A stretch of 64,000 bases of DNA from Anaerolinea sp. (GTDB taxonomy: Bacteria > Chloroflexota > Anaerolineae > Anaerolineales > Anaerolineaceae), in contig DYEC01000011.1 of NCBI GenBank assembly GCA_020725865.1, positions 124,001-188,000 of the forward strand, given 5' to 3'. Under the pieces are notes generated by a model that saw only the letters and a program-made list of their open reading frames with translations, was not told where the DNA came from and did not search any database. Made by a program: the position numbers and the translations under genes. Below are positions 33,143 to 49,749 of the stretch, piece by piece (the first letter of the stretch is position 1; every line of letters begins with the position of its first letter).

Positions 33143-33589
33143 TTACAACACAAGGAATTGCGTAGCAAGCGTCATCCCTTCCAGCTGGCTGAGCTTTTGG
33201 CGCTGGCTATAAATGATACAGCGCACCACATCGCCGATAGAGATAATGCCTATCATGCGTTCGTTTTCCATCACCACTAAATGGCGGCAGCGCCTCTTGG
33301 TCATCAGCTCCATACATTCTTCTACAGTCTGATCGGGGTGAACAACCGGAAAGTCCGTTTCCATAATGTCATGGACGGGGGTATCTTTGGATGACCTTCC
33401 GCGCAGGATGATTTTGCGGGCATAGTCGCGTTCGGAGATCAGCCCAACCACTTTGTCATCCTGGACAACCGGCAAGGCGCCAACATCTTTATCGGACATC
33501 AGACGCAAAGCCTCATAAACACTGCTTTGCGGGTCAATTGTCCAGGTGAATCCACCACGTAATTCCAAGAGATGTCTGACTGTATTCAT
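33143..33589 (-). CDS. CBS-domain pair protein
   Basis: Protein of 148 residues made almost wholly of two CBS domains (a Bateman module), about residues 8-60 and 75-130. Each has the hydrophobic pattern ending in GLISERDYARK or GIISIGDVVR. Such modules bind adenine nucleotides, and free-standing ones regulate partners or sense energy state. It is paralogous to the CBS protein at 36787-37221. Its upstream region holds two CTATCA-type repeats (33652-33667) also found before the zinc-ribbon gene at 48803. The ATG at 33589 is preceded by GAGGTG. Confidence 0.88.
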   Translation of the reverse strand: MNTVRHLLELRGGFTWTIDPQSSVYEALRLMSDKDVGALPVVQDDKVVGLISERDYARKIILRGRSSKDTPVHDIMETDFPVVHPDQTVEECMELMTKRRCRHLVVMENERMIGIISIGDVVRCIIYSQRQKLSQLEGMTLATQFLVL

Positions 33590-33651
33590 TTTGCACCTCT
33601 GTTTTGTTCAAACTGTAATCGTATTCTATTTGTGAGGTTAATCAGCGCAGG

Positions 33652-33667
33652 CTATCAAATGCTATCG
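33652..33667. promoter_or_regulatory. Two phased CTATC(A/G) repeats upstream of the CBS gene
   Basis: CTATCA at 33652 and CTATCG at 33662, exactly 10 bp apart. They lie within 18-19 bp identical to a segment at 49044-49061 in front of another minus-strand gene. Probable binding site for an unknown regulator. Confidence 0.55.
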
Positions 33668-46564: not shown

Positions 46565-46794
46565 ATTGTAATAACCCGTAAAGAGAAGATGGCAAAAATG
46601 TTTGATTTTGTTAAAATATTACATATTTTTTGTTCGAAAGTCAATAGCTTTTGATGATATTTAACAAATTCCAAAGACATTTTATCTTTTTGGTTGTGAG
46701 ACTATTGGGGTATGTGAAGATATTTTTTCCCTTTCCTCACTCTTTGTGTTGGTTGCTGGTAGAATTGAATCAGCTTTTCTATAAAGGACATGTC

Positions 46795-47892
46795 ATGAAG
46801 GACATCTTTCAACATATCAATGAATTATTTGAACGCGGGGAAGATTTTGCACTGGCAACAATTTTCAGTCGTTCCGGTTCAGCGCCGCGCACCAGTGGGG
46901 CGCGCATGGTCATTCACGCCAATGGCAGCATCTACGGTACGATTGGCGGCGGGTTATTGGAGGCGCAGGTGTTACAGAGTGCGCCCCAAATTTTTTCCGA
47001 ACGAGGGGCATTGATCCGCGAGTTTTCGCTTTCGGGTAAGGACGCTTCGCAGACGGATATGATCTGCGGTGGAAATGTTGCAGTATTGATCGAGTTTATA
47101 GACGCCGGCAACAACACCTATCGCAAGATATTTCAGGAAGCGCTGGCAGCAATCAACGAACACCGCCGCGTCTGGCTTCTAACCGAACTGCCTCCCAGCG
47201 GCGAACTGACCCAGATCAAACGGCGCTGTCTGCTCAAGCAGGACGGCAGTACAGTTGGTAAGCTTTCCTGTACTGTTGAGGTGGGGCTGGGTTCGCCAAT
47301 CGGCTTGTTCGGCGACGAGGTGGAAGAGGTGACTGAGCAGCCTGATATCACCAGTAGCCGCTCGCCGGTGGTGGTACGTTTGGTGAGCGGGGAGCGTTTG
47401 CTGGTGGAGCCGATTTGTGATTATGGGACGGTGTATATTTTCGGCGCGGGGCACGTCTCACAAAAACTGGCGTCGCTGTGTTCGCTGGTGGGCTTTGAGA
47501 CGGTGGTGATTGATGACCGCGCCGAGTACGCCAACCGCGAGCGTTTTCCTTCAGCGGACCGCATTCTGGTTGTCCAATCCTATCGGCATTGTTTTGAAGA
47601 TCTGCCGATTGATGAGGACAGCTATCTGGTGATCGTCACTCGCGGTCATCTGAACGACAGCGAAGTACTGGAACGGGCAATGCGCACCCGCGCCGGCTAT
47701 ATTGGCATGATCGGCAGCAAGCGCAAACGCGATGAGGTATATAAACATCTGGTAAAGACGGCTGGCTTTCGCATGGAGGACTTTTCGCGTGTAAATTCTC
47801 CAATTGGTATCCCAATCGGTGCGGAGTCCCCAGAGGAAATTGCCGTATCTATCGTTGCAGAACTGATTCAGGCACGGGCAAAGAGAAAATGA
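46795..47892 (+). CDS. XdhC/CoxI-family protein
   Basis: Protein of 365 residues. The N-terminal XdhC_CoxI domain has ALATIFSRSGSAPRTSGARM and GTIGGGLLEA; the C-terminal Rossmann domain has YIFGAGHVSQKLASL and VIDDRAEYANRERFP. In known systems XdhC binds and sulphurates molybdenum cofactor for xanthine dehydrogenase-family enzymes. No molybdenum hydroxylase genes are visible in the window, so its client is unknown. The start is ATG 46795 with AAAGG 8 nt upstream; the longer open frame from 46651 has no support. It is divergent from the DeoR gene. Confidence 0.85.
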   Translation: MKDIFQHINELFERGEDFALATIFSRSGSAPRTSGARMVIHANGSIYGTIGGGLLEAQVLQSAPQIFSERGALIREFSLSGKDASQTDMICGGNVAVLIEFIDAGNNTYRKIFQEALAAINEHRRVWLLTELPPSGELTQIKRRCLLKQDGSTVGKLSCTVEVGLGSPIGLFGDEVEEVTEQPDITSSRSPVVVRLVSGERLLVEPICDYGTVYIFGAGHVSQKLASLCSLVGFETVVIDDRAEYANRERFPSADRILVVQSYRHCFEDLPIDEDSYLVIVTRGHLNDSEVLERAMRTRAGYIGMIGSKRKRDEVYKHLVKTAGFRMEDFSRVNSPIGIPIGAESPEEIAVSIVAELIQARAKRK

Positions 47893-48802: not shown

Positions 48803-49000
48803 CTAAATTGTTTGACGAACCGCAGCCAGCTCTGCCACAGCAACGGCAGAGCGATCGTTCTGCGCACGAAAGCTCAATGCTTCCTGACAGCGCGGACAAA
48901 TCGCCCGTCCGGGAAAGCTCTTCTCACCGCAACGCGAACAGGTTTCGCCCAGCATTTGATAGCGTTGTTTTCTCAATCTCCAATGTCGTGGTATTTCCAT
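48803..49000 (-). CDS. Orphan rubredoxin-like zinc-ribbon protein
   Basis: Protein of 65 residues whose core is C-x2-C-x10-C-x2-C with the pattern CSRCGEKSFPGRAICPRC, matching the zinc ribbon of DUF35 proteins. Those are normally about twice as long, with an OB-fold attached; here only the ribbon and a short tail remain. The start ATG 49000 has AAGGAG in front. Upstream lie four CTATCA repeats in 10-bp phase. DUF35 proteins assist thiolases and other acyl-CoA enzymes; whether this short one does is unknown. Confidence 0.72.
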   Translation of the reverse strand: MEIPRHWRLRKQRYQMLGETCSRCGEKSFPGRAICPRCQEALSFRAQNDRSAVAVAELAAVRQTI

Positions 49001-49326
49001 GATACGCACTCCTTTCAACGGTTGTAGGTAGTTTAGCGTTCCCAGGCTATCAAATGCTATCAGGTGGATGAAAAAACTATCAAAAACTATCAGATTTTTG
49101 CCATACGCAAATCGAGCAAGATAAGAGAACATAATCTTGCGCTGATGTCAGGCAAGATGTTGCTTGCCCAGTTGCATTAACTGAGAGACCTGCCCGCCAG
49201 GTGTCGCTTGCTGGCGTAAAAGGTCATTCTGTGGAGGTGACCTCTGTCACTTGTGCGAGGCGCCAGATTGCAATATACTTTAAATGTGGAGTAATTTCAC
49301 CTATATTACCAAAAGAGGCTAAAACA
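49001..49326. other. Regulatory region between zinc-ribbon and Rrf2 genes
   Basis: A 326-bp gap between divergent genes. It contains the phased CTATCA repeats (49047-49092) and, near the Rrf2 gene, possible promoter elements TTTAAA and TATATT about 17 nt apart. I see no gene in it. Confidence 0.55.
49047..49092. promoter_or_regulatory. Four CTATCA repeats in 10-bp phase
   Basis: CTATCA occurs at 49047, 49057, 49077 and 49087; the unit expected at 49067 is degenerate. The exact 10-bp period puts all sites on one face of the helix. On the minus strand the unit reads TGATAG and ends 47 bp before the zinc-ribbon ATG. The first two units lie in a segment shared with 33649-33666. Confidence 0.7.
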
Positions 49327-49749
49327 ATGCAAATTACCCGACAGGCGGACTATGCGTTGCGTGCCATGATGTTTCTGGCAAAAATGAAGCCCAATCAGCG
49401 GGCTGCAACCAGCCAGATTGCAGAAGCGCAAAACATCCCACCTTCTTTTCTCGCCAAGATCATCTCGCAGCTTTCCATTGCCGGTCTGATCCACACCTCA
49501 CGCGGAGCGCGCGGTGGCGTTTCGCTGGCGCGTCCGGCGGAAGAAATCTCCATTTTGGAGGTAGTTGAGGCAATTGATGGACCGATTGCCCTCAATCAGT
49601 GCACGGAAACTGGCGATGGCTGTCCCTTTGGCGAGGATTGCGTCCTTAAGCCCTTATGGTGCGATACGCAAGCCGAGCTGGTACAGCGGCTTAAGTCCGT
49701 TAATTTTGCTCAGTTTGTAAACGGGAACTCCACCAGCAAAGCAGTTTGA
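49327..49749 (+). CDS. Rrf2-family Fe-S regulator
   Basis: Transcription factor of 140 residues of the IscR/NsrR/RirA type. The N-terminal MQITRQADYALRAMMFLA and RGARGGVSLARPAEEI are the family's winged-helix signature. Three Cys (QCTETGDGCPFGEDC, spacing C-x6-C-x5-C) could bind a 2Fe-2S or 4Fe-4S cluster. The start ATG 49327 matches the universal N-terminus; the longer open frame upstream is not supported. It probably senses iron-sulphur status, redox state or nitric oxide. The target is not visible. Confidence 0.9.
   Translation: MQITRQADYALRAMMFLAKMKPNQRAATSQIAEAQNIPPSFLAKIISQLSIAGLIHTSRGARGGVSLARPAEEISILEVVEAIDGPIALNQCTETGDGCPFGEDCVLKPLWCDTQAELVQRLKSVNFAQFVNGNSTSKAV

Follow-up and report, generated by a model that had tools for sequence, protein, structure and literature searches.

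The window, that is, the whole 64,000-nucleotide stretch of Anaerolinea DNA under analysis, carries two sites with closely related tandem repeats, each located upstream of a gene on the minus strand. The larger site has two pairs of CTATCA units before a gene for a 65-aa zinc-ribbon protein, and the smaller has a single pair with one mismatch before the gene of a CBS-pair protein. On the gene strand the pair reads TGATAG-N4-TGATAG and is followed 10-11 nt later by a hexamer resembling a -10 box, with no conserved -35 element. The features are as follows:

49047-49062, minus strand: proximal pair of the putative operator, TGATAGCATTTGATAG on the gene strand, 11 nt before the predicted -10 hexamer; one of two strict matches to the promoter architecture in the genome
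49077-49092, minus strand: distal pair of the putative operator, TGATAGTTTTTGATAG, 30 bp (three helical turns) upstream of the proximal pair, with no -10 box seen 11 nt after it
49030-49035, minus strand: predicted -10 hexamer TAAACT of the zinc-ribbon gene, at spacing 11, the commonest among the DUF35 promoters
48803-49000, minus strand: 65-aa mini-DUF35 protein with an N-terminal helix and a zinc ribbon, OB-fold absent; matches chain E of 6esq/6et9 (E 4.9e-8)
33652-33667, minus strand: putative operator pair of the CBS gene, CGATAGCATTTGATAG, one mismatch
33635-33640, minus strand: candidate -10 hexamer TAACCT of the CBS gene, read from the sequence, 11 nt from the pair, a spacing as in other members
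33623-33628: alternative candidate -10 hexamer TAGAAT of the CBS gene
33143-33589, minus strand: CBS-pair protein of 148 aa with two CBS domains

The repeats had been described before in a sequence-only reading, which placed CTATCA at 49047, 49057, 49077 and 49087, and all four positions are exact. It also listed a degenerate unit at 49067; the letters GATGAA do stand there, but they keep only one of the six, and the array is therefore to be seen as two pairs 30 bp apart and not as five units. At the second site, CTATCA is found at 33652 as claimed, but the companion unit at 33662 is CTATCG and thus has one mismatch. The identity between the two sites, put at about 18-19 bp, extends over 19 bp (CAGGCTATCAAATGCTATC, 33648-33666 and 49043-49061) up to a differing next base, and the distances given to the minus-strand starts at 49000 and 33589 are right. 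The 17-bp core of the identity, GGCTATCAAATGCTATC, occurs twice in the window with up to three mismatches against 0.10 occurrences expected, and one in 100 shuffled sequences reached two. In the whole genome the perfect CTATCA-N4-CTATCA is found only as the two pairs before the zinc-ribbon gene (one occurrence of the reversed-pattern control), while a search tolerating one mismatch gives 16 matches against 10 in the reversed control, so that many of the one-mismatch matches are background. An Rrf2-family regulator gene lies divergently from the zinc-ribbon gene at 49327-49749.

The best solved relative of the 65-aa protein is the DUF35 chain in the archaeal acetoacetyl-CoA thiolase / HMG-CoA synthase complex, with the match spanning residues 4-40, while Pfam yields a double zinc ribbon below the cut-off and nothing else. 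Among the traits of DUF35/ChsH2 proteins, the N-terminal helix and the CxxC..CxxC zinc ribbon are present and the C-terminal OB-fold is missing. Matches to the protein occur in 36 of the 41 genomes searched, its own included, and the stronger ones in relatives span residues 1 to 39-47 of the query. Short DUF35 forms are likewise located downstream of the operator in three other genomes (G031, G006 and G013). An XdhC gene (46651-47892 in the window) is found near the short DUF35, and in G031 the short DUF35 has a putative XdhC-like gene in its vicinity (L081, 8495-9583).

Conservation and promoter architecture of the putative operator

Conservation of the pair was assessed in the 30 best DUF35 loci, retrieved by protein match alone and including the window gene, by searching 200 nt upstream. 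TGA(T/C)AG-N4-TGANAG is present in 25 of them, 17 times as the perfect pair, against a mean and a maximum of 0 in 100 shuffle sets; five loci (L047, L057, L064, L067 and L072) have no pair within the 200 nt. A -10-like hexamer follows 10 or 11 nt after the pair at 23 of the 25 sites (20 at 11 and 3 at 10), distances which the same rule picks in 17% of cases on shuffled letters. Thus two traits of OmpR/PhoB-type operators are found at these loci, namely two direct repeats with a period of 10 (25/30) and a location in the -35 place with constant spacing to the -10 box (23/25).

For the CBS gene, the best 30 homologue loci were treated in the same way, again with the window gene and 200 nt upstream; in two of them, L112 and L114, the matched stretch is interrupted by a stop. 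A pair within two mismatches is present before 10 of the 30 homologues, in the direction of the gene in seven cases and reversed in three; 40 shuffle sets average 0.275 such homologues, and none of the sets exceeds 1. The other 20 homologues have no site within 200 nt upstream. The 10-11 nt spacing to a TA...T hexamer is kept at four of the sites (G000, the genome of the window, and G031, G022 and G002). Conservation before orthologues in 25 of 30 protein-found DUF35 loci and in 10 of 30 CBS homologues, where shuffles give 0.3, supports the sequence-only proposal that a regulator would bind at repeats with a one-turn period, so that the CBS gene and the zinc-ribbon gene would share a regulon. 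Binding at the repeats may also be cooperative. That reading missed the mevalonate pathway as the core of the regulon, as well as the fixed spacing of 10-11 nt between the site and the -10 box downstream.

Over all non-redundant sites, the distance from the pair to the -10 box is 10 nt in 45 of 46 thiolase promoters and 11 nt in 45 of 52 HMGR promoters, and among 55 DUF35 promoters it is 11 nt in 37 and 10 nt in 12, values that are partly biased because many of the loci had been fetched with a pattern demanding a TA hexamer at 9-12 nt. The spacing was also tested on loci retrieved through the protein or with only the pair, and there, besides the DUF35 sites above, the ten thiolase sites of the perfect-pair set have the -10 box at 10 nt in nine cases and at 11 nt in one. 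No -35 element is conserved beside or under the site. The HMGR promoters possess a TG before the -10 box (extended -10), and the thiolase promoters have a good -10 box with no conserved TG. Additional TGATAG units occur within 60 nt upstream at 16 of 162 sites, and 15 of the 19 units are located at 10-11, 20-22 or 30-32 nt, compared with two of eight for a scrambled control word. The second window pair, three turns upstream of the first, fits this clustering.

The mevalonate operon and the extent of the probable regulon

In a set of 61 genomes there are 69 perfect pairs, where the reversed control gives 20, and TGATAG-N4-TGANAG-N9..12-TANNNT is found in 172 of 396 genomes of the class against 13 by the reversed control, both control totals being counted by eye from tables; the remaining 224 class genomes do not contain this strict pattern. 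In the genome of the window, TGAYAG-N4-TGANAG-N9..14-TANNNT has two sites, before the mini-DUF35 gene and before a thiolase gene at C20, and its control has none. For 29 perfect-pair sites in relatives the surrounding locus was returned, and 13 of these stand before DUF35 genes, 10 before thiolase genes, one before HMGR, two before MOFRL-type glycerate kinase genes and three in coding DNA; L021, L024 and L033, located inside coding DNA, were set aside as operator sites. Among the best 30 loci of the class scan, the next gene is HMGR in 13, DUF35 in four and HMGS in one, while 12 have no labelled pathway gene downstream; in one of these 12 (L228) a mini-DUF35-like peptide follows. Forty stretches were picked out of the class listing, and in 36 of them one or more labelled genes of the set are present. 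Throughout the analysis genes were called simply as the longest ORF, a procedure that overlooks some of them.

Specificity was assessed with the exact form, TGATAG-N4-TGATAG-N9..11-TATAAT, which occurs at 96 places in named genomes, 55 in Chloroflexota and 41 elsewhere, as sorted by eye from the record titles (L295, titled only "bacterium", is counted as other). Within 1.3 kb downstream, 52 of the 55 Chloroflexota sites have a thiolase (38), HMGR (7) or DUF35 (7) gene, as compared with none of the 41 sites outside the phylum. A 53rd Chloroflexota site, in L301, is cut by the end of the locus, and DUF35 is the next gene at the same place in L339; neither the site in L233 nor that in L322, for which a longer stretch was inspected, is followed by any of these genes.

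Larger stretches reveal an HMGR-HMGS-thiolase-DUF35 operon with a pair between thiolase and DUF35. From sequence, the operator stands before the operon and often again before the DUF35 gene inside it, and also before a separate thiolase gene, short DUF35 paralogues and the CBS-pair protein gene. The enzymes are named by Pfam and NCBIfam models: HMGS scores above the archaeal-type cut-off of NCBI, and the HMGR of relatives scores best with the NCBI model named 'degradative' (TIGR00532; one protein tested), although it is encoded beside HMGS and thiolase. The loci contain 110 distinct thiolases, not a census, since many loci were fetched via the site: the catalytic Cys and His are intact in each of the 47 with the site, the 39 directly after HMGS comprise 18 that keep both and 21 that lost the Cys (for example L086, 8325-9491), and of the remaining 24, with neither a site nor HMGS in view, two keep both, this last class including copies with the upstream neighbor outside the locus. 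As the residues are kept in 47 of 47 site-bearing copies, the operator appears to mark the working thiolases. A gene related to AlkZ lies directly after the operator-bearing thiolase gene in the genome of the window and in G031 (L078, 11018-11875; L083, 7939-8796).

HMGR and HMGS were not found in the present assembly, whereas HMGR was found in 37 of 41 genomes, and the regulon is therefore visible here only through the thiolase, mini-DUF35 and CBS genes. The two enzymes may be missing through a gap in the assembly or truly lost. DXR has no match in 40 of the 41 genomes, the genome of the window among them, and as neither the mevalonate nor the MEP route is visible, a gap is the simplest reading. 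Replacement of the mevalonate by the MEP pathway has lost ground on the same result, DXR being the only MEP gene searched for.

Several further genes are less-supported members of the set. These are a MOFRL glycerate kinase in G028, G016 and G032, a DUF4153 membrane protein in G007, G035 and G020, an M50-CBS protease after the operator in G047 and G379, which belong to one genus (L402, 4854-5954; L165, 2844-3980), and a TspO-like gene after the operator in G379 (L400, 5010-5774); G270, from the same genus, has a matching site.

Proposed mode of regulation and candidate regulators

Taken together, TGATAG-N4-TGA(T/G/C)AG is very probably the operator of a mevalonate-pathway regulon in this class of the Chloroflexota, and the protein bound to it is likely of the OmpR/PhoB winged-helix type. 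A head-to-tail arrangement of such domains is favored because the units are direct repeats one turn apart, lie in the -35 place and keep a fixed distance to the -10 box, a layout typical of OmpR/PhoB-type activator sites. The operator occupies the -35 place 10-11 nt from a -10 box of the sigma-70 type, and in the proposed mechanism a single regulator with an OmpR/PhoB-like winged-helix domain would bind it head-to-tail with one subunit per 10-bp turn. Positioned beside RNA polymerase, the bound regulator would contact the enzyme and activate the promoters together, and the second window pair, lying three turns further upstream, would let another dimer bind on the same face.

The same regulon might instead be repressed, with tandem subunits covering the -35 zone and blocking RNA polymerase when isoprenoid precursors suffice. 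The site does cover that zone, the extended -10 of the HMGR promoters could function without a -35 element, and CarH-type repressors are placed likewise, yet a conserved -35 is lacking both next to the site and beneath it, and the good -10 boxes of the thiolase promoters, with no conserved TG, suit dependence on an activator; repression is possible but clearly the less probable mode. A further possibility is that no protein operator is involved and an alternative sigma factor uses the site as its -35 element, or that the site is a structural feature of the DNA; its fixed distance to the -10 box would agree with this. Such a reading is very unlikely given two units one turn apart with a free N4 between them, an ordinary TATAAT-like -10 box, the occurrence of additional units 10, 20 and 30 nt away, and reversed sites before some of the CBS genes.

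With regard to the identity of the regulator, CarH binds direct repeats over the -35 region, and the genome of the window encodes B12-binding MerR proteins of the CarH/LitR-like kind twice beside carotenoid-like genes. Both the MerR and the B12-binding domains are found, the adjoining genes look like those of phytoene desaturase and phytoene synthase, and a one-mismatch site lies 25 nt before a MerR gene (L008); that site, however, is near background and leaves no room for a -10 box before the start codon. Homologues occur in 34 of 61 genomes, but at E<=1e-12 there is none in six genomes that bear the motif (G003, G006, G022, G028, G032 and G044), by which this candidate is largely refuted and its role in the regulon becomes highly improbable. 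The tandem pair of these MerR genes and the putative phytoene synthase/desaturase genes occupy 6114-11116 of L079, at C11 of the genome.

A weak lead, improbable in itself though less so than the MerR proteins, is a protein combining an OmpR-type domain with a phosphothreonine-binding FHA domain (FHA and Trans_reg_C domains found) and encoded next to a kinase-like gene. Four motif-bearing genomes were compared, and the protein belongs to one of the two OmpR-type families for which reciprocal best hits exist in each of them. In three of 40 neighborhoods, all from one family, its gene is located some 4 to 9 kb away from the mevalonate operon, and in the genome of the window, G028 and G033 it is divergent from a putative Ser/Thr kinase gene. 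Against it stand the small number of genomes compared, the other 37 stretches, in which it is not seen near the operon, its location elsewhere in G000, G028 and G033, the absence of an operator upstream of its own gene, and its clustering, where it is close, with a miaA-like gene. That this protein runs the mevalonate regulon across the class by reading phosphorylation by the neighboring Ser/Thr kinase is more doubtful still. If it does, the system would be a bacterial functional counterpart of the sterol-sensing control of HMG-CoA reductase, and CBS proteins, along with the M50-CBS protease of one genus, would be co-regulated sensing parts.

The second OmpR-type family, with a degenerate receiver (L377, L368, L371 and L367), is present in the same number of the compared motif-bearing genomes (4/4), and nothing else links it to the site. 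The genome of the window has 14 Trans_reg_C matches, none of them linked to the site class-wide, and no regulator family is common to the 40 operon neighborhoods of 7 to 20 kb. Four of these neighborhoods have a GAF histidine kinase gene divergent to HMGR, and genes with receiver domains occur in scattered places. Self-regulation was rejected, as TGANAG-N4-TGANAG is found before none of 30 OmpR-type genes (400 nt upstream, longest-ORF calls).

Relation to known systems

CroR is an OmpR-type regulator, and the Pho box, bound by regulators of the OmpR/PhoB type, consists of a direct repeat of two units, spaced by about one helical turn, in the -35 place. The tandem operators of the Pho-box and GlnR kinds thus resemble the one described here in having direct repeats about one turn apart at -35; the GlnR site a2, for instance, lies at the -35 of amtB according to PMC5826061. 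Here, however, the unit is TGATAG with a period of 10 and the targets belong to the mevalonate pathway, whereas GlnR boxes are modeled as 11-nt repeats. Mevalonate genes are likewise under control in Enterococcus faecalis, where, according to PMC10952268, the CroRS two-component system raises mvaS, mvaE, mvaK and mvaD, but that organism belongs to another phylum and the genes form part of a cell-envelope stress regulon; the terms 'binding motif' and 'direct repeat' are absent from the main text of that paper. An archaeal-type mevalonate pathway in some Chloroflexota is reported in PMC13001223, which cites Kanno 2024, and the available passages mention no shared operator or regulon. Among the literature matches listed, none concerns this motif or regulon, or transcriptional control of the pathway in Chloroflexota. 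As far as the literature searched reaches, the kind of operator is therefore known and the regulon is new.

Isoprenoids are built from mevalonate, and little seems to be known about control of the mevalonate pathway in the bacteria that depend on it. A single 16-bp operator appears to mark the pathway, including the catalytic thiolase copies, across a class known mostly from metagenomes, and would bring in genes with no known role, namely those of the CBS-pair protein, the mini-DUF35, the MOFRL kinase and the DUF4153 protein. It would also be a ready bait for finding the regulator.

In archaea, DUF35 acts as a scaffold in the complex of acetoacetyl-CoA thiolase, HMG-CoA synthase and DUF35, as described in PMC6996347. 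The same three proteins are encoded in one operon here, and the window gene matches the DUF35 chain of the archaeal complex (6et9), but its product has no OB-fold, and 21 of the 39 thiolases that follow HMGS lost the catalytic Cys. Reduced DUF35 forms are also present elsewhere: G437 and G114 have a peptide of about 60 aa with no cysteines that corresponds to the N-terminal part of DUF35 only. In L336 (8907-9442), DUF35 is apparently split after the operator into a 60-aa cysteine-free peptide and a separate OB-fold gene, and short peptides resembling the former are found in L403 and L404.
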